Source: Spirochaetota bacterium
Lineage (GTDB): Bacteria > Spirochaetota > UBA4802 > UB4802
Assembly (NCBI GenBank): GCA_029907515.1
Contig: JARYLT010000013.1
Location: 1-46,563, forward strand
DNA length: 46,563 nucleotides
Direction of reading: 5' to 3'
Shown: one piece after another, positions 6,431 to 39,378 of the stretch
How the letters are laid out: the number at the start of each line of letters is the position of its first letter
How positions within the stretch are numbered: the stretch's first letter is position 1
Notes under the pieces: generated by a model
The model's input: only the letters and a program-made list of their open reading frames with translations
Database searches by the model: none
Told to the model about the DNA's origin: nothing
Translations under genes and position numbers: made by a program

Positions 6431-6559
6431 TCCCACTTCCCCTACTAAATTTATTCTAATAAATATTGCCTTTTGCCTTGACAAATATACATAATGAAGT
6501 AATTTTTTATCAAGATAATATTTAATGGAAATGGCAATTTTTTATAATTGGTAGACAGA

Positions 6560-7039
6560 ATGGATAATCTTATCAACATTGGTGTAGCACAGCTTGCAGT
6601 TGCTGAAAACCCTGCAGTGTTGCGTACCATTCTGGGTAGCTGTGTTGGTATATGTATTTTTGAGCGGAATAAAAAGATAGGGGGGCTTGCTCATATATTA
6701 TTACCCAAAAATCCGGGTGATAGCAATCCTGAAAAATATGCAGATACAGCAATCCCTATTCTGGTACAGCAGTTATTAAAAAAAGGGTGCAAAAAGGAAT
6801 TTATGTCTGCAAAAATTGCAGGTGGTGCTTCAATGTTTAAATTTAAATCAACAACGACACTGGCAAATATTGGTGAAAACAATATTGAGGCAACACGGCA
6901 GGCACTGGCAAAATTTGGTATTCCTATTGTAGCTGAAGATATTGGTGGCAGTGCTGGCAGGGTTATTGACTTTTTCCTGGATGATGGAAGGTTAAAAGTA
7001 AAAGCCAGTGGCCAGGAAAAAATGTATTATAAGGTTTGA
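6560..7039 (+). CDS. cheD: Chemoreceptor glutamine deamidase CheD
   Basis: A protein of about 159 residues with the CheD signature: LGSCVG with catalytic Cys28, then GGLAHILLP with His45. CheD deamidates glutamines on chemoreceptors and in many bacteria also stimulates the CheC phosphatase. Length fits the family. I prefer the ATG at 6560 to a TTG at 6548, because the Cys and His then fall at positions 28 and 45, next to the usual numbering. No other chemotaxis gene is in the window. It leads a run of five same-strand genes (HDOD, zinc-ribbon, methyltransferase, STAS). Confidence 0.9.
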   Translation: MDNLINIGVAQLAVAENPAVLRTILGSCVGICIFERNKKIGGLAHILLPKNPGDSNPEKYADTAIPILVQQLLKKGCKKEFMSAKIAGGASMFKFKSTTTLANIGENNIEATRQALAKFGIPIVAEDIGGSAGRVIDFFLDDGRLKVKASGQEKMYYKV

Positions 7040-7062
7040 TAGATGGATTGGAGATAATAATT

Positions 7063-7923
7063 ATGCATGAACATATACAACAGAGGATTCAGTCCATAAT
7101 TCAGAATGTTGACCAGTTACCTTCTTTGCCAGATGTGGTAAGCAGGATAATCAATATGGTCAATGACCCTAATGTCTCATTTAAGCAGGTTGCCGAAGAA
7201 ATAGCAAAAGATCAGGCAATCACCGCCAATATTTTAAAATTGTGCAATTCGGCTTATTTCAGCAAAGGTAAGGAAATATCTTCTATTGACCGTGCTATTG
7301 TCATCCTCGGGCTCAAAGAAGTAAAAGATATTGTTGTTCTTGCCACAACAAAATCGGTATTAAACAGGGTTATTTTGGGTTATGACCTGGCACGGGGTGA
7401 GTTGTGGAAACATGGTGTTGCAGTTGCAATGCTTGCAAAAAAGATTGCAAACGATTGTAACCAAAAGCAAGTAGCTGATATTGCTTTTACGGGTGGGATA
7501 ATACATGATGTAGGTAAAACGGTTCTGGCATTATTTGTCCAGAGTACATTTAAGGATATTCTTGCCACTGTAACCGAAAAAAATATCACATTCCAGGAAG
7601 CAGAAAAATTGATTATGGGATTTGACCATCAGCAGATTGGCCAGCAGGTTACCATAAAGTGGAAATTTCCAAAAGTGTTACAATCAATTGTTCGCTATCA
7701 TCACGAGCCCACAAATGCTCCTGATGAACACAAAAAAATAGTATCAATAGTCCATATAGCAAATACTCTGTGTCTCATGGCGGGCATTGGTATTGGAAGT
7801 GATGGGTTATATCATGAATTGAATCAGGATGCAGTAGTAATGCTTGGACTGCAGGACGCACACTTGGAAAAATTTTATAGTGATATCCCAGAATTGATGA
7901 ACAAAGCAAGGGATATCCTGTAG
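7063..7923 (+). CDS. HDOD domain protein
   Basis: A protein of about 286 residues with an HDOD domain over roughly residues 15-215: the LPSLPDVVSRIINMVNDPNVS opening, the DQAITANILKLCNSAYF segment and GGIIHDVGKTVLALF. HDOD proteins are HD-fold relatives usually thought to act in signalling rather than as cyclic-di-GMP phosphodiesterases. An HD pair (His-Asp in IIHDVGK) is visible here, so residual activity cannot be excluded. The ATG at 7063 follows GGAG with a 9-nt spacer; an upstream TTG reading is less likely. It lies 23 nt after cheD and probably shares its transcript, linking it to motility or chemotaxis control by inference. Confidence 0.85.
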   Translation: MHEHIQQRIQSIIQNVDQLPSLPDVVSRIINMVNDPNVSFKQVAEEIAKDQAITANILKLCNSAYFSKGKEISSIDRAIVILGLKEVKDIVVLATTKSVLNRVILGYDLARGELWKHGVAVAMLAKKIANDCNQKQVADIAFTGGIIHDVGKTVLALFVQSTFKDILATVTEKNITFQEAEKLIMGFDHQQIGQQVTIKWKFPKVLQSIVRYHHEPTNAPDEHKKIVSIVHIANTLCLMAGIGIGSDGLYHELNQDAVVMLGLQDAHLEKFYSDIPELMNKARDIL

Positions 7924-9227: not shown

Positions 9228-9298
9228 ATGGAGTGGAATTTACTCAATATGCAGCCATATATGTCCGAAAATCAGAACAGCAGTATATTATTACAATT

Positions 9299-9601
9299 AT
9301 GATATATGCATTTAATAAAACTGAACGGGGATACTTCCTCAAAATTGAAGGAGATCTTGATTTATATTCTTCTTATAATTTAAAGGAAGATGTAAAAAAG
9401 GCATACTTATCCGCTCCTGATGATTTAATAATTGATCTTTCAGGGTTAAACTATATTGATTCAGCAGGTATTGGATTTTTAATTGATATAAAAAAAACGA
9501 GTATCCAAAACGTTAAAAAATGTGAAATACAGAATATCCCTGAGGATATTTTAAAGATGTTTCGTTCTCTACGGGTAGATACCATTTTGCAAATCAAGTG
9601 A
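9299..9601 (+). CDS. STAS-domain anti-sigma factor antagonist-like protein
   Basis: A single STAS domain of about 100 residues. The strand-rich start (GYFLKIEGDLDLYSS) leads to IDLSGLNYIDSAGIGFLIDI, where the serine in DSAG is the usual phosphorylation site in SpoIIAA-like proteins. STAS antagonists bind and sequester an anti-sigma or switch kinase when unphosphorylated. The domain boundary supports the ATG at 9299; a GTG at 9233 would add 22 residues outside the fold and has no better ribosome site. It closes the cheD run. Its kinase partner is not next to it. Confidence 0.78.
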   Translation: MIYAFNKTERGYFLKIEGDLDLYSSYNLKEDVKKAYLSAPDDLIIDLSGLNYIDSAGIGFLIDIKKTSIQNVKKCEIQNIPEDILKMFRSLRVDTILQIK

Positions 9602-31754: not shown

Positions 31755-32486
31755 ATGTTGTATTACCTGGATAAGGATGTCATCTGGTTCCCGCCGGTGG
31801 AGGAAGCCATAGAAGATGGGTTGCTTGCATTTGGCGGGGATTTAACACCACGGTGGTTGCTTGAGGCCTACAGCAGAGGCATTTTTCCATGGTTTAATAG
31901 TGATAACTCTGAGATATTATGGTGGAGCCCCGATCCGCGTTTTATTTTGTTCCCGCAAGAATTAAGGCTACATCGTTCATTAAAGCAGGTAATGAAAAAA
32001 AAGATTTTTACCGTAAGTATGGACACAGCATTTCAAAAGGTTATAGCTGCATGTGCCATGCCACGGAAAAAAGAATCTGGTACCTGGATAACTGCACGAA
32101 TGAAAAAAGCATATATAAAGCTTCATGCTATGGGTTTTGCACATTCTGTTGAGGTGTGGCATGACGGCATGCTTGCAGGGGGCCTGTATGGGGTGTCTTT
32201 AGGGAATGCATTCTTTGGTGAATCCATGTTTACCAGTGTTGATAATGCTTCAAAGGTTGCTCTGGTTACTCTGAATGCAGTGGCACGAAGATTGGGTTTT
32301 GCATTTATTGACTGCCAGGTATATACAGATAATCTTAAACGCTTTGGTGCGCGGTTTATTGAGCGACAAGAATTTATGACCCTGCTCAATGCTTCCCTGA
32401 AACATTCAACACATCAGGGCAGCTGGAGTTCACTGATACACGATGGCTATGATTATCTGGAATGCCTTACTGGAGCAGGAGCTTAG
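31755..32486 (+). CDS. aat: Leucyl/phenylalanyl-tRNA-protein transferase
   Basis: A 243-residue transferase that moves Leu or Phe from tRNA to proteins starting with Arg or Lys, creating an N-degron. Family blocks are clear: FPPVEEAIEDGLLAFGGDL, AYSRGIFPWFN, LWWSPDPRFILFP, TWITARMKKAYIKLH, HSVEVWHDG, LAGGLYGVSLG, FFGESMF and FIDCQ. It is the last gene of clpS-clpA-aat. Its 3' end overlaps the convergent J-domain gene by 20 bp. Confidence 0.95.
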   Translation: MLYYLDKDVIWFPPVEEAIEDGLLAFGGDLTPRWLLEAYSRGIFPWFNSDNSEILWWSPDPRFILFPQELRLHRSLKQVMKKKIFTVSMDTAFQKVIAACAMPRKKESGTWITARMKKAYIKLHAMGFAHSVEVWHDGMLAGGLYGVSLGNAFFGESMFTSVDNASKVALVTLNAVARRLGFAFIDCQVYTDNLKRFGARFIERQEFMTLLNASLKHSTHQGSWSSLIHDGYDYLECLTGAGA

Positions 32487-33375
32487 ATTCAAGTAAATTT
32501 TCTTTTTTTGCTTTTATCTTTGTGTAACGGATTTTTGGATACTCCATGAGTGCGGTTACAAAAACAGAAAACATAAAATACAGTGACAGTGAAACAACAG
32601 CAACTGCAATCACCCCAATGATAAGAATAAATATCCTGGCATATGGTGCTGCTACAATACGTTGTGCTGAAGCAATAACCGCACCTGCATATCCCAGCAA
32701 AAGAAGGAATGCTGATGTAAATGTGCCATAGAATACCATTTTGCCCACCTTCATTGGTATGCCTTTAAGCTGTTCATTCATCCATGCAGCACCTTTTTTT
32801 ACATACTGTGTAAAAAGCTCAGCAATAATTTCAGCCACCCGTTTTATCATCAATGCAGTTATGATTATTCCAGCAATGATTGATGAGTATGATGCTATTG
32901 CTATGGCAAAAACAAAAAGGACAAGCAGGGCGATAGTTACTGTAATAAGAATACCTGCCATGACAAGAAGAGGAATGCATATACTGATAACAATTGACTT
33001 CAGCGAAGCTTTAATCAGTGCGATGGTGCTTTCAAAACGACTTAAGTAATCGTCAGGGTGAAGTACAAAGTATTCCCATTCCTGTGCGTACCGATCGTCA
33101 GGTGGACCAAAATCTTCAAAAACTGTCTCCACTTTTGGAGTTTGTGCATGATATTTCTTCCATGCTGAGTCATAACTTGCACGCTGGGATGTGTTTGTTA
33201 AAATATCATATGCTTCACGGATAAGGACAAACTGTGCGTAATTATTTTCTTTTGTACTGTCAGGATGGGTTTCTTTTGCTTTTTTCCTGAATGCCGATTT
33301 GATGGTATTAATATCTGAATTGGGGGGAATATCAAGAATCTTATAGTAATCTTTAAATGCTATGTCCATAAGCAT
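32467..33375 (-). CDS. J-domain membrane protein
   Basis: A 302-residue protein. Residues about 8-75 are a DnaJ domain with the HPD tripeptide in AKETHPDSTKEN, needed to stimulate an Hsp70 ATPase. A linker follows, then about four to five membrane segments between residues 120 and 290 with two amphipathic stretches between. There is no G/F region or zinc-finger domain, so it is a type III J-protein that would recruit DnaK to the membrane. It is the last gene of the minus-strand operon from 39080. One AACTATCGC word is read as Thr-Ile-Ala. Confidence 0.83.
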   Translation of the reverse strand: MLMDIAFKDYYKILDIPPNSDINTIKSAFRKKAKETHPDSTKENNYAQFVLIREAYDILTNTSQRASYDSAWKKYHAQTPKVETVFEDFGPPDDRYAQEWEYFVLHPDDYLSRFESTIALIKASLKSIVISICIPLLVMAGILITVTIALLVLFVFAIAIASYSSIIAGIIITALMIKRVAEIIAELFTQYVKKGAAWMNEQLKGIPMKVGKMVFYGTFTSAFLLLLGYAGAVIASAQRIVAAPYARIFILIIGVIAVAVVSLSLYFMFSVFVTALMEYPKIRYTKIKAKKENLLESKLLLQ

Positions 33376-33389
33376 CAGGAGATATTATA

Positions 33390-33776
33390 TTATATAGTTA
33401 TATACCTGAAATACTGAACGGCATCCACATCAGTATTGAATATTTTTATAAAGCTTCCAACCCTGACCACATCTAAGATATTCAGGATAGATTCATTAAC
33501 ACGAGCTAGCACAAGATCTCCATTATTTTTTCTGATTTGTTTTGTAGCTGAAATCAGGGTACTTATGCCACCGCTATCAATCTGGGATACCTTTTTTAAA
33601 TCAATAATTATTTTTTTTGCCCCACCATTGATCAGGGTGTTTAAGAATACCCACAATTGTCTTGACGTTTCAATATCAATTTTTTCAGGGTACGTAACAT
33701 AAAAGACAATTGTTTCATAATCAATTTTATCTTTGTTGATGAACGATAGATTTAATATTTCAACTTCAAAACTCAT
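33390..33776 (-). CDS. STAS-domain protein (second of a pair)
   Basis: A 128-residue protein with a STAS fold: the KKIIIDLKKVSQIDSGGISTLISA block has the serine that switch kinases phosphorylate. About 25 extra residues at the N-terminus precede the domain. The closing segment (IKIFNTDVDAVQYFRYITI) resembles that of the neighbouring STAS protein, so the two probably arose by duplication. It lies 25 nt after that gene and 14 nt before the J-protein, downstream of the SpoIIE-type phosphatase, which is its likely dephosphorylating partner. Confidence 0.82.
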   Translation of the reverse strand: MSFEVEILNLSFINKDKIDYETIVFYVTYPEKIDIETSRQLWVFLNTLINGGAKKIIIDLKKVSQIDSGGISTLISATKQIRKNNGDLVLARVNESILNILDVVRVGSFIKIFNTDVDAVQYFRYITI

Positions 33777-34242: not shown

Positions 34243-36951
34243 TCAGGATAATTCTGCTAAAATTATAGTAACATCATCATGAAATGATTCTGATTGATTC
34301 ATCTCCCCCCATGTGTATAATGTATTAATCAAACCATTAATAAAAGCTTGAGGATTGGTGAGATAGTTAGTGTTAATATAATCTGTAAGCCTCTCGAAGC
34401 CAAATATTTTGTTATCAGTATTTCTGGCCTCTATTATCCCATCAGTGTAAAGTAAAAATTTATCTCCGGTTGAATAGGTAGTTGTTGTTTCTTCATATGT
34501 ACCATCTTCTATCCATCCTATGGGGAAACCTTTTACCCAGTTGTTGAATATTGAGCCATGTTTTTTAATAAGCAATGGGGACCAGTGGCCTGCTGAAGAT
34601 ACTGTTACAGTTTTGTTTTTGGTATCAATTAAGGCATATGCAGCAGTGATGTAATTTTCTTTTATATTATTACTCAAATCTTTATTAAGTTTAGTAAGCA
34701 GAACTGCCGGATGCTGTGCATATTCCTTATTGTTAGCAAAAGCCATTTTTAACATGGCACAAACAAGAGCAGCAGGAATGCCATGACCTGTTACGTCAGC
34801 TATCATAATACCGGTTTTATCTTCATCAATTTTAATAACATCATAAAAATCACCGCCCATTTCTCTGGTAGGGATGTAAGCGTAGGCAATATCCATGTTT
34901 TTTATCCTGGGTATATCCTGTACTACCACTGAACTGTGTATCTCGTGTGCAAGGCGTATTTCATGCTTTATCATGACAAATTCATTATGTTCTTCTACTG
35001 ACTTTTTCAGGGCAATAAGATTTGAAATGCGTGCAATTAATTCATCTTTGTTGAAGGGTTTGCTGAGATAATCATTTGCACCAATCCTGAAAGCTGTCAG
35101 TATTTCCTGAGTGCGGTGCTTTGATGTAATTATAATTATTGGTAGCTCATATAACGAATAACGTTTACGAATTTTTTCACATACCTGGAATGCAGAAGTT
35201 CCTGGCAAAACTGTATCCAGCAATACGATATCAGGCAACTTTTCCTGCTGTAACATAGAAAATAGGCCAGAATCTTCATGTGAAAATTCTACATAATAGC
35301 CTGCATCTGTCAGCATATCGTACAGTATTTTGACATTAACCGGGTCATCATCAACGATATAAATAAATCCCTGTGATTTTTCAAATTGGCTTTGCAGATA
35401 ATGCTCATCTTTACCTGAAGGATGTATGGTATATTCAATATAAGATTTAGTTGCTGCTAATTCTTTATCAATACTTGCTTCATCATAAGGAAAATACAAA
35501 GTTACTGTTGATCCTTTATCAGGTATTGATTCTATTGCAATTGTGCCATTGTGCAATTCCATCAGTTTTTTTGTAATAACAAGGCCAAGCCCCAATCCTC
35601 CATATGGGGTTTCTTGAAGTTTACTATCGTATCCAAAATCATCAATATGATGAATTAATTGCTCCGGAAATCCTCCTGCACTATCCTGTACTACAATAGA
35701 AAGGGTAGTATCATTGTGTTTTTCTGTAACAATGGATATGGTACCTTTTTGTGAATATTTAACTGCATTGCCTATAATATTTAACAGTATCTGTTGCAGT
35801 CTTTGTTCATCTGCAATGATGTGGGTTGCTTTTTTATCAATGTCTATTGTAATAGACAGGGATTTGCTACTGATAACTGGCTGTAATATTGATAATACAA
35901 AATTAACTACACCTGCTATATCAACAACTTTCTTATTCAGAATAATATCATTATTTTTCAACCGGGTAAAATCCAGTATATCGTCAATCATATAGGATAA
36001 TCTTAAGGCACTATTAGAAATCATTTCCAGAGAACTTGTAACAGCAGCGGTTTCACCGGTAGAGTAGCTATGGATAATAGAATTTGTTAAATGTGTTATG
36101 CTTTCAAGAGGTATTTTAATCTCATGCGATATATTGGCCAGGAAATCATCTTTGAGTTTATGAAGCCGTAACAATTCCATATTGGTTGAAGTTAATGCCT
36201 TTATTTCTAAATTAACCATATCTAACAGGTGCTGAGTTGTAATAGCCAGTTTTCCAATTTCGTCTTTCTGGTTTATTACAGGAATCTGAATGGATGTTGT
36301 ACCTTCATCAAATTTCTGCAAAGCATTAATAATAGCTTCCACAGGTCTGGAAAATTTATAACTAAATCCAAGTGCAGTAATATATGCAATAATTATAATG
36401 GAAGCAATACTTATGATGAATACTGTATAATTATGGTATACGGGTTTTAGCATCACTGATTCATTGTATTCCATATGCGTTAAACATGCTATCGCACTGT
36501 TTGCCAGGGATGTTTGTTCAGTAAATTCAAGCAGTTTTGTTTTATGCAAGGTTGAAAAAAACACAGCCGGTTGTTTTTGAATAGTATGTAAACGTTCTGG
36601 TGATATACGTGACAATGTTTTACCGTGAGGAATATCAACAAGCAATACACCATTATATGCCGGATTTGGTGTAATCAGAATAACCCGAAGGCAAACCAGC
36701 CCTGAGGCAAACATAGGGTTAAAACTGCTTATATATTCATTGGCATCTATACTTGTCTGAGGAATATTGCCACTGTTTAACAACAACATGGTAAGTATTG
36801 CATGTGATATCTGTTTTGCTCGTATAGTCCCTTCAGTAATAATGCTTTCATGCTGTTGTTCTATCTGTCTGTTGAGTATATATATAGGTACAGGTGTGGT
36901 AATGGCAATAATGATGATAAATGCAATAAAGAATTTATACCGTATTTTCAT
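34243..36951 (-). CDS. Hybrid histidine kinase - receiver - SpoIIE/PP2C phosphatase
   Basis: A 902-residue membrane signalling protein. TM1 is at about 7-27, an extracytoplasmic sensor at 28-175, TM2 at about 176-198 and HAMP at about 198-250. HisKA carries H276 in ANISHEIKIPLE. HATPase has the N box (QILLNIIGNAVKYS), DSAGG and GGLGLGLVI. The receiver near 535-650 has IVDDDP and the phospho-acceptor D579 in LLDTVLPG. The PP2C/SpoIIE domain from about 670 has EMGGDFYDVI and IADVTGHGIPAALV. Sensor kinase, receiver and Ser/Thr phosphatase lie in one chain, so the signal can pass internally to the two STAS proteins encoded just downstream. It begins 1 nt after the TPR gene. Confidence 0.92.
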   Translation of the reverse strand: MKIRYKFFIAFIIIIAITTPVPIYILNRQIEQQHESIITEGTIRAKQISHAILTMLLLNSGNIPQTSIDANEYISSFNPMFASGLVCLRVILITPNPAYNGVLLVDIPHGKTLSRISPERLHTIQKQPAVFFSTLHKTKLLEFTEQTSLANSAIACLTHMEYNESVMLKPVYHNYTVFIISIASIIIIAYITALGFSYKFSRPVEAIINALQKFDEGTTSIQIPVINQKDEIGKLAITTQHLLDMVNLEIKALTSTNMELLRLHKLKDDFLANISHEIKIPLESITHLTNSIIHSYSTGETAAVTSSLEMISNSALRLSYMIDDILDFTRLKNNDIILNKKVVDIAGVVNFVLSILQPVISSKSLSITIDIDKKATHIIADEQRLQQILLNIIGNAVKYSQKGTISIVTEKHNDTTLSIVVQDSAGGFPEQLIHHIDDFGYDSKLQETPYGGLGLGLVITKKLMELHNGTIAIESIPDKGSTVTLYFPYDEASIDKELAATKSYIEYTIHPSGKDEHYLQSQFEKSQGFIYIVDDDPVNVKILYDMLTDAGYYVEFSHEDSGLFSMLQQEKLPDIVLLDTVLPGTSAFQVCEKIRKRYSLYELPIIIITSKHRTQEILTAFRIGANDYLSKPFNKDELIARISNLIALKKSVEEHNEFVMIKHEIRLAHEIHSSVVVQDIPRIKNMDIAYAYIPTREMGGDFYDVIKIDEDKTGIMIADVTGHGIPAALVCAMLKMAFANNKEYAQHPAVLLTKLNKDLSNNIKENYITAAYALIDTKNKTVTVSSAGHWSPLLIKKHGSIFNNWVKGFPIGWIEDGTYEETTTTYSTGDKFLLYTDGIIEARNTDNKIFGFERLTDYINTNYLTNPQAFINGLINTLYTWGEMNQSESFHDDVTIILAELS

Positions 36952-36952
36952 G

Positions 36953-38029
36953 TTATTGCAGCTTCTGTATGGTTTCTTTTATCCGTTGTGACCGTACAAT
37001 ATAACCTTTAGCAACCGTATTATCAGGATCAATCAAAAGTACCGTATTCATTATTGTTATACATTTGTCATAATCTTTGCTATTAAATGCTTCAATGGCT
37101 TTTTGCTGAAGTTCGGGAATCTGTTGTTTAAGCTTATCCTGTAAATTTTTATAATCAATGGAAGCCTCTGCAATGTATTGGGATGAAGCAGCTAAAAGCG
37201 GCAGAGCATCAAAATCTTTTCCCTGCTTTATGAGTAACAGTGCAGCGTTATAGTGTTCTTGTGCCTGTGAGAGGAGAGTAACATACTGTAAAGATCCTTT
37301 GTGGTCAGGTTTAAGCGATAGTACCTGCTTAAATGTTTCCAGCGCATGTACATGGTCTTTTTTTTGTACATAGTCCATTGCAGCAGTATAAAGCTTTTTA
37401 ATGGTTTGTTCCCGTACTGCATTCTTTTCAGCTTCTTGAGAAATATAATAGTCTGGCTTATGCAGTGCAAACTGATATCCGGCTTTAAGGGAAAAAACAG
37501 TAGTCTGAAAATATGTGTGCGATAGCTCCGTTAGATGATACATACATTCAGCAATGAGTAGCGTCCGTTCAAATAGAGTCTTTGCTATTCCTGCATTTAT
37601 AAGAAAACCAGTTTTTGTAGTAGAATCATACGCATCAGTTTTTATAGCAGAAAGGGTATAATACTGTAAAGATACACCAGCCCCAGCATAAATGGTAGCA
37701 TTATAGGGAAGTACGTAATACAGTGACGGGGCGATAGTTATGCCAAACGACTGCATACTTGAATTGCTGCTCTGTGCAAGGGAAAACCGGTTGTACGCAA
37801 GCACTCCGTTAAGCAAGAATAAATCAGTTAAAGGTACAATTGAAAAAAAACCGGAATTTAATCCATTATTGAGACTATTACTGTAATAACCTGTTATTAC
37901 AGCATACCCTGCCTGTATGCCAACGGTCACATTCTCTTTAAAAGATGTTTGCGCAAATATATTGCAATTAAGTAAGACGACAGTAATGACACAAAATACA
38001 TACAAAAAATTTATAAGTTTTAATTTCAC
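36953..38029 (-). CDS. Outer-membrane barrel-like protein with C-terminal TPR repeats
   Basis: A 358-residue protein. A signal peptide (cut likely after NIFA near residue 26) leads to about 170 residues of alternating beta-strand sequence with aromatic ends, as in a small outer-membrane barrel. The C-terminal half (about 205-358) holds helical TPR-like units, for example DYVQKKDHVHALETFKQVLSLKPDH and KAIEAFNSKDYDKCITIMNTVLLIDPDN. No named family. It is directly upstream of the kinase-phosphatase, so it may supply or hold the sensed signal at the envelope; that is inference. Two ACTATCGC words lie in it. Confidence 0.68.
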   Translation of the reverse strand: MKLKLINFLYVFCVITVVLLNCNIFAQTSFKENVTVGIQAGYAVITGYYSNSLNNGLNSGFFSIVPLTDLFLLNGVLAYNRFSLAQSSNSSMQSFGITIAPSLYYVLPYNATIYAGAGVSLQYYTLSAIKTDAYDSTTKTGFLINAGIAKTLFERTLLIAECMYHLTELSHTYFQTTVFSLKAGYQFALHKPDYYISQEAEKNAVREQTIKKLYTAAMDYVQKKDHVHALETFKQVLSLKPDHKGSLQYVTLLSQAQEHYNAALLLIKQGKDFDALPLLAASSQYIAEASIDYKNLQDKLKQQIPELQQKAIEAFNSKDYDKCITIMNTVLLIDPDNTVAKGYIVRSQRIKETIQKLQ

Positions 38030-38072
38030 CTGTATTTACCAGCATGATTGTAATATATATTGAATACTACTA

Positions 38073-39080
38073 TTACCAGCACAAACCTAAAAGATGTAAT
38101 TTGTCATTGCAATTTCGGTCATTACTATATATCCATTCATAATTAGTTCTGTTATGTGCCCCACTTCGTCCTGTGAGTACGGGTATAACAGCTAGTGTTG
38201 AACTTGACGATGAAGTTATTGGAGATGTCCATGTATTGCAGGTATAGTCAGTATCGCAGGAACCATCCTGCAGACTACCCGACCACCAAAAACTATCGCA
38301 TACGCCTAAATTTTGTAGTTCACCAATAATTGTACCATCCAGTAGATCATTCCAGTTATATGCTATTAATAAACCGGTATCTGAATAAATGGGCCAGTTT
38401 GCAGGAATGCCATAATGTTCTGGAAAATTAATTATTGCATCAACACTGTCAATGCTAATGAAAGCAACATAATGATCCTGAGGCAGTGTAGGATTATTTA
38501 TTAATGATTGATGAATAAGATTATTAATATCCTGGCGTGCTGTACTGCTGGATGAAGCCATGGCACCGGTGTATGTGCCAGCACTGAAAAGATATATTCT
38601 GCCAATAGTGGTAAATGGTGCAGGAGTATAGATAGATATATTGTTATCAGGATCGCGCACACAGACATTTACAAAATATTGTTTTCCAAACAATAAATTT
38701 GTGATTATTTGTTCAGTTACAAGCTCATTGGACCATTTATCTTCATCAAGAAGTCCGGACTGAAGAATTTCTTCCAATGAAAAAAGAGTCAATGTGCGGC
38801 TAACAATAACCTGGTATTGTAATAATTCAGGGGGTGAGTTGTCAGTTGCTAACGTCCACTGTATTTTTGCTGAATTTTCAGTGATATTGGTTACTATTAA
38901 GAGCCCATTATTGCCTGGTTTAGGTGCAGTACTGTCAGGGCTTGTATTAGTATATGCGTTTTCCTGGTTAATTATACTATTAAAATTGTCATTTGAACAT
39001 GATGAAAAATAGATGATAGCAATAGCCATTAGTATAACGCTGGCTATCCTTTGTGACAAATGTATAAAAGTTTTTATCAT
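38073..39080 (-). CDS. Lipoprotein with FN3-like and DUF1554-like domains
   Basis: A 335-residue protein. A signal segment ends in IIYFSSCSND, a lipobox with Cys28. An Asn/Ser-rich linker follows, then a fibronectin-III-like domain (about 58-158: ITENSAKIQWTLATDN, GKQYFVNVCVRD). The C-terminal 175 residues (IYLFSAGTYTGAM, DSFWWSGSLQDG, CNTWTS, RNCNDKLHLLGLCW) look like DUF1554, a surface-lipoprotein domain best known from Leptospira. It probably sits on the outer membrane. It is first in the operon with the TPR/barrel and kinase-phosphatase genes, and carries one AACTATCGC word. Confidence 0.7.
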   Translation of the reverse strand: MIKTFIHLSQRIASVILMAIAIIYFSSCSNDNFNSIINQENAYTNTSPDSTAPKPGNNGLLIVTNITENSAKIQWTLATDNSPPELLQYQVIVSRTLTLFSLEEILQSGLLDEDKWSNELVTEQIITNLLFGKQYFVNVCVRDPDNNISIYTPAPFTTIGRIYLFSAGTYTGAMASSSSTARQDINNLIHQSLINNPTLPQDHYVAFISIDSVDAIINFPEHYGIPANWPIYSDTGLLIAYNWNDLLDGTIIGELQNLGVCDSFWWSGSLQDGSCDTDYTCNTWTSPITSSSSSTLAVIPVLTGRSGAHNRTNYEWIYSNDRNCNDKLHLLGLCW

Positions 39081-39378
39081 ACCAGTAACATGGTAAAATG
39101 GGCATTAGAATAAAAATTACCCCAAAACATATTAAGATAATAAAATTACTATATATTTACAACTTTTTTATTAAATTTTTTTAAAAATTTTTCATAAACT
39201 ATAATGTATCCTTATGTAACTAATATGGACAAATATAAAATATTGTACACTTCACCTATGGCAGATTATGGGTACAGTTCATGAAATGTCATCTAGAATT
39301 AGTAGTTCATTTTTTTATGAAAAATTTTTAAAATGATGTAATTTTTTGAAAAGTAGGAATAATTGAAGTATTTTTTAT
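39081..39378. other. AT-rich intergenic region, no gene seen
   Basis: About 300 bp of divergent intergenic DNA between the lipoprotein gene and the tRNAs. It is rich in A/T runs and has several short A-tract inverted stretches (for example near 39318-39340), but no reading frame with a ribosome site. It should hold the promoter of the minus-strand operon, which I could not place with confidence. Confidence 0.4.

Follow-up and report, generated by a model that had tools for sequence, protein, structure and literature searches.

A chain in which a sensor histidine kinase, a receiver and a SpoIIE-type phosphatase are joined, encoded next to two STAS proteins, raises the question of whether phosphate passed from histidine to aspartate within the chain governs the phosphatase. 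The locus would then be a self-contained converter from two-component to partner-switch signaling, as a preliminary description had proposed. We analyzed it in a 46,563-nucleotide stretch of Spirochaetota DNA (contig JARYLT010000013.1), referred to below as the window. The proposal is partly supported: its phosphatase-STAS half stands, whereas its self-contained two-component half is doubtful in the genus concerned.

The fused chain and its six-gene unit

The chain is encoded within a row of six genes that all run in one direction, with gaps of 43, 1, 63, 25 and 14 nt from the lipoprotein gene to the DnaJ gene:

38073–39080, minus strand: putative lipoprotein, first gene of the unit; fn3-like Pfam match of 20 bits, below the cut-off of 25
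36953–38029, minus strand: outer-membrane-type OMP-TPR protein, separated from the downstream kinase gene by 1 nt
34243–36951, minus strand: 902-aa hybrid sensor histidine kinase, membrane-bound and ending in a SpoIIE/PP2C phosphatase domain; ATG start; assigned from Pfam and catalytic residues
33802–34179, minus strand: STAS1, anti-anti-sigma-type STAS protein, 125 aa; Pfam STAS 51 bits, phospho-serine predicted in IDSYG
33390–33776, minus strand: STAS2, 128 aa; Pfam STAS 55 bits, phospho-serine predicted in IDSGG
32467–33375, minus strand: membrane protein with a DnaJ domain (Pfam DnaJ 63 bits), separated from STAS2 by 14 nt

The shared direction and the short gaps suggest that the six genes form one transcript. 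The layout first described stands for the two related downstream STAS proteins with their intact serines, but it had overlooked the upstream genes (36953–39080). The putative lipoprotein carries a cysteine behind a hydrophobic leader (FSSCSND), and a profile search found its gene also in the genus and in G011, G035, G029 and G021. The OMP-TPR protein combines a signal-peptide-like start, an OMP_b-brl-like N-terminal half (24.4 bits, below the Pfam cut-off of 28.7) and a TPR C-terminal half, in which TPR_2 exceeds its Pfam cut-off. STAS1 and STAS2 are 40% identical and are mutual best matches in a search of their own genome; against NCBIfam TIGR00377 (cut-off 53.45) they score 44 and 53.3 bits, respectively, the latter just short of the cut-off. 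Among the fetched relatives, all STAS proteins of the paired type retain the IDSxG serine. A further STAS protein, possibly another partner-switch node, is encoded at 9233–9598 on the plus strand of the window, about 1.3 kb past CheD-like and HDOD-like genes (6548–7923).

The 902-residue chain follows the order TM-sensor-TM-HAMP-HisKA(H276)-HATPase_c-REC(D579)-SpoIIE/PP2C:

Residues ~1–27: TM1
Residues ~28–175: periplasmic sensor
Residues ~176–258: TM2 and HAMP
Residues 262–335: HisKA, with H276
Residues 378–490: HATPase_c
Residues 529–645: REC, with D579
Residues 646–690: helical linker
Residues 691–902: PP2C

Above the respective cut-offs, Pfam places SpoIIE at residues 709–900 (150 bits), HATPase_c at 381–490 (84 bits), Response_reg at 530–642 (83 bits) and HisKA at 267–333 (37 bits); HAMP, at 199–236, is sub-threshold (20.1 against a cut-off of 25). 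The domain layout read from the bare sequence is thereby confirmed, with HAMP below its cut-off, and both H276 and D579 were found where they had been placed. The domain matches of the chain and of the STAS proteins are far beyond chance.

The catalytic sites of the C-terminal half are complete. In the receiver, D579 and K631 are invariant in 34/34 aligned proteins, and the acidic pair D534/D535 and T609 are intact and essentially invariant among the 34 aligned relatives. In the PP2C domain of the window protein, GGD701, D719, H723, D837 and D892/D893 are intact, and these residues too are essentially invariant in the alignment. Loss of the metal-binding aspartates, which had been named as grounds for refuting the proposal, was not found: D701, D719, D837 and D892/D893 are kept in all relatives with coverage among the 34 aligned. 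The architecture as such is not unique and was already known. Many chains of about 1000–1150 aa with this tail occur in the phylum, and the present genome encodes a second HisKA-HATPase-REC-SpoIIE chain (G000:C171:57309-59369; open frame of 740 aa, match from HisKA onwards only).

Structure models of the sensor (residues 1–260; mean pLDDT 56) and of the OMP-TPR protein (mean pLDDT 44), both of low confidence, were each built from an alignment with one added relative (L062). The sensor model weakly resembles dCache/sCache domains and further ligand-binding domains of the periplasm, including the periplasmic domain of Chlamydia RsbU (6mab). Since the TM-scores of these matches are below 0.4, we call the sensor no more than tentatively Cache-like.

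Kinase motifs and selection within the genus

The kinase core of the window protein retains H276, the N box, D423 and the G2 box GGLGLGL; in its HATPase_c domain the G1 box reads DSAGG rather than DxGxG. We compared it with its four counterparts in the genus, G003 (90% identical to the window protein), G004, G002 and G001. In the order window, G003, G004, G002 and G001, position 276 is H, Y, Y, H and Y (codons CAT, TAC, TAT, CAT and TAT), a distribution that needs three changes on the tree with either ancestral state. Outside the genus, histidine is absent from this position in one row only (Gln in L095). Position 280 is isoleucine in 5/5 genus members versus T/S in 30/30 outgroup rows; T280 is the threonine of the ExxT motif, on which phosphatase activity toward the phospho-receiver depends in HisKA kinases. 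The G1 box reads DSAGG in the window and G003, DTAGG in G004, DNAGG in G002 and STAGG in G001, and the G2 box, GGLGLGL in the window, G003 and G004, is GGLRLGL in G002 and GGSALGL in G001. G454 is thus replaced by R in G002 and by A in G001, which has also lost D423.

Two candidate diagnostics were dropped. The DxAGG form of the G1 box was not taken as proof of a dead kinase, since it occurs in working kinases elsewhere, nor does the L/T site of the G2 box serve as a marker, since L100 has the same letter together with an intact histidine. In another histidine kinase of the genome, with PAS-like sequence (L131 1030-2634; G000:C130), tyrosine also stands in place of the DHp histidine (AYELKVP), next to a G1 box that is otherwise canonical.

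The view of the locus as a self-contained two-component converter does not sit well with tyrosine at position 276 in three of the five orthologs, a broken G2 box in G002 and Ile280 in all five. As the receiver and PP2C residues are preserved alongside these changes, phosphotransfer from His to Asp in cis seems to be dispensable for the chain. The window protein, which retains H276, may nevertheless have kinase activity. Its motif set, including D579 and K631, and its HisKA and HATPase_c scores above the Pfam cut-offs would fit a fully active, self-contained hybrid kinase in which H276 autophosphorylates, phosphate passes in cis to D579 and the phosphorylated receiver switches the PP2C domain acting on the two STAS proteins. 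The histidine is kept in nearly all relatives outside the genus, and split equivalents, RsfS-RsfR, operate in this way (PMC10950880). However, the 90%-identical ortholog and two other genus members carry tyrosine, G002 keeps the histidine but has R in its G2 box, the T280I exchange is genus-wide, and the DxAGG form of G1 seen in the genus was found in no other alignable kinase of the genome. We consider such an intact relay unlikely, though a serious contender.

All domains of the chain are under purifying selection. Between the window and G003, dN/dS is 0.03 for HisKA, 0.10 for HATPase, 0.06 for REC, 0.10 for PP2C and 0.26 for the sensor. As HisKA and HATPase thus remain at about 0.03–0.10 against a tyrosine-bearing sister, the kinase core is kept although the histidine is not; by this measure the kinase fold is preserved while, judging from the motifs, the chemistry is not. 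Columns that are conserved in the outgroup are altered in the genus at 24/55 positions in the kinase core, 12/34 in REC and 5/33 in PP2C. The kinase core differs in this respect from PP2C (p=0.009), whereas its comparison with REC and PP2C combined gives p=0.04 or p=0.26 depending on the counting rule; the latter value is obtained when the count is restricted to columns changed in at least four of the five members, and the excess in the kinase core is then non-significant.

Eroding kinase motifs could also reflect ongoing loss of the entire pathway from the genus. Two STAS genes would agree with such decay: an internal deletion has reduced STAS1 of G002 (L062 8690-9050) to a remnant, next to an intact STAS2, and STAS2 of G004 (L065 7131-7575) is frameshifted near its C-terminal third, possibly through an assembly error. 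The frameshift that splits the kinase gene of G001 was set aside, because two N bases at the break indicate that it may be an assembly gap. Low dN/dS in every domain (0.03–0.26) and in STAS2 (0.02), all between the window and G003, and PP2C and REC sites that are intact in 5/5 genus members speak against a decaying module, which we regard as most improbable.

DNA identity between the window and G003 is 86–94% through the ClpA, Aat, DnaJ, STAS2, STAS1 and kinase genes. From position 37001, shortly beyond the start of the kinase gene, it falls to 60–70% over the OMP gene; through the lipoprotein gene it is 73–81% (60–81% overall for 37001–39100), with dS rising from about 0.4 to about 1.0–1.1 over these surface genes. 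It looks as if the surface genes had been exchanged or had rapidly diverged next to a retained cytoplasmic part, and a drop at the kinase/OMP boundary is what a surface-exposed input might be expected to show.

Conserved neighbors and partner-switch genes elsewhere

To the window we added 33 related loci, selected by similarity of the kinase chain. The most widespread neighbor of the chain is the upstream OMP-TPR gene, not the downstream STAS genes. This conserved outer-membrane partner, missed in the preliminary description, adjoins the chain in 22 of these 34 loci, usually 0–40 nt away, and does so in seven families, six of the same order (f1, f2, f4, f5, f6 and f7) and one outside it (f22); in G095 it lies on the opposite strand, convergent with the chain. 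The STAS pair was found within 3 kb of the chain in 14/34 loci from three families (f1, f7 and f4), in two of the 14 upstream of the OMP gene, and a lone STAS gene of another kind adjoins the chain in several further loci. Conservation of the pair in three families upholds the proposed link between the chain and the two STAS proteins, whose dephosphorylation by the chain is suggested by this gene linkage. The DnaJ-domain gene adjoins STAS2 in the genus only. In a paralogous clade of the chain in f7 (L076, L079, L095, L096 and L097), one STAS gene of the EYMDSSGIG type lies just upstream, and such loci have a convergent downstream gene encoding HisKA and HATPase_c (checked in L076). A scan of genome contigs returned two loci only, one of them from a 70% relative on an uncultured MAG.

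As first reported, no sigma factor or anti-sigma gene stands beside the chain. The statement that there is no separate anti-sigma kinase holds for adjacent genes but not for the genome (3.49 Mb in 193 contigs, 98.6% complete), where the proposed search for orphan RsbW-like kinases found five unlinked loci, on G000 C136, C176, C107, C22 and C119. The genome has 24 SpoIIE, 22 STAS and 8 HATPase_c_2 matches, five of the latter being above the cut-off and hence counted as RsbW-like; one of these five is a stand-alone protein of 147 aa. No match in the genome exceeded the TIGR02980 cut-off for SigB/F/G-type sigma factors, and the best four sigma matches comprise one member of the FliA/WhiG family, two RpoD/RpoS-like proteins and one RpoD-like protein of 587 aa. 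A complete RsbU-RsbV-RsbW-sigma set, with a linked RsbW and a SigB/F/G sigma factor, was not found.

It had been proposed that the HATPase domain of the chain might serve a second role, which is possible. If it doubled as the STAS kinase, chain and STAS pair would make a complete switch without RsbW. A two-sequence profile, which distant members can escape, detected no RsbW-like gene near the cassette in the loci of the 33 relatives; the HATPase fold is under purifying selection where the histidine is lost; and HsbR and CrsR likewise combine PP2C and a serine kinase in one chain (PMC6482189). The domain is, however, a HisKA-linked HATPase_c rather than an RsbW-type HATPase_c_2, both G002 and G001 have a broken G2 box, D423 is also lost in G001, and five separate RsbW-like loci exist in the genome. 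We therefore regard this arrangement as highly unlikely.

A candidate signaling route and its relation to known systems

We favor, with moderate confidence, a reading of the unit as an envelope-to-cytoplasm input to a partner switch, in which the PP2C domain acts on STAS1 and STAS2 while the histidine kinase core drifts toward a DivL-like pseudokinase in this genus. The lipoprotein and the outer-membrane barrel/TPR protein would supply the periplasmic sensor with a signal, presumably through contact with the OMP; the latter could instead be a co-regulated target rather than an input. HAMP and the HisKA/HATPase dimer would relay the signal to the receiver and then, along the helical linker, to PP2C, which would strip phosphate from the conserved serine of STAS1 and STAS2. 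The opposing phosphorylation may be carried out by an RsbW-like kinase from another locus; once free of phosphate, the STAS proteins would bind this kinase or another target. In the genus, the kinase core may be losing, or have lost, phosphotransfer in cis and probably serves mainly as an allosteric transmitter, with the intact receiver possibly phosphorylated from outside. This route builds on parts that are observed: the domains, the intact PP2C, REC and STAS sites, the gene order, the loss of the histidine in relatives and purifying selection. Against a drift toward a pseudokinase, the window protein keeps H276, the N box and the GxGLG G2 box and may thus autophosphorylate, and nearly all relatives outside the genus look like active kinases. 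The stricter version, in which throughout the genus the OMP barrel-TPR protein signals via a kinase-dead DHp/CA dimer directly to PP2C and the STAS pair on which it acts, while the receiver provides another input through phosphorylation in trans, is put forward tentatively, as somewhat short of an even chance.

If this version applies, the repeated exchange between histidine and tyrosine in sister species would be a two-component system caught midway in turning into an allosteric partner-switch input. One conserved unit, in a lineage of poorly studied bacteria, would handle three signaling currencies, outer-membrane contact, His-Asp chemistry and serine dephosphorylation. Close relatives differ at the one residue deciding the His-Asp step and offer a clean natural experiment on kinase-to-phosphatase signaling by shape alone. 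Such signaling is predicted by the coiled-coil model of PPM phosphatases, for which control by varied or exchangeable N-terminal modules has been proposed (PMC12143880).

The literature searched yielded nothing specific on HK-SpoIIE proteins in spirochetes; split versions of the HK-REC-SpoIIE chain (RsfSR, RsbKY) have already been characterized. In Mycobacterium smegmatis, RsfS-RsfR/RsfB also comprises a membrane histidine kinase, a REC-PP2C protein and a STAS anti-sigma antagonist that is dephosphorylated, as we infer for the present pair. There, however, kinase and phosphatase are two separate proteins, the output is SigF through RsbW1, an outer-membrane partner is lacking and phosphorylation of RsfR lowers its phosphatase activity (PMC10950880). 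RsbK-RsbY of Bacillus cereus, in the outline given in the same paper, similarly pairs a hybrid kinase bearing a receiver with a REC-PP2C protein acting on a STAS protein, but as separate proteins and in control of SigB, whereas the present genome yielded no sigma factor of the SigB type. HsbR-HsbA and CrsR-CrsA share the REC-PP2C arrangement and the STAS partner; HsbR is fed by hybrid kinases through HptB, and its activity is raised by receiver phosphorylation (PMC6482189), the reverse of RsfR, so that either sign of regulation may apply to the present chain. Unlike the present chain, HsbR and CrsR carry a C-terminal serine kinase/anti-sigma domain, which is missing here, where the chain has its own sensor and histidine kinase core instead. 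Closest in architecture, sensor kinases of Beggiatoaceae and Cyanobacteria bear REC and a terminal SpoIIE domain in one chain; the part of PMC5108060 that treats them offers them as an example of domain shuffling and gives no function or STAS/OMP neighbors.

DivL, whose structure (PDB 4q20) was found as a match, has tyrosine in place of the DHp histidine within an otherwise preserved fold and signals without kinase activity (PMC4211667). The DivL-type tyrosine is present in G003, G004 and G001 and absent from the window protein, which has histidine. Neither a REC nor a PP2C domain is attached to DivL, whereas in the present genus both follow a kinase core whose decisive residue varies between species.
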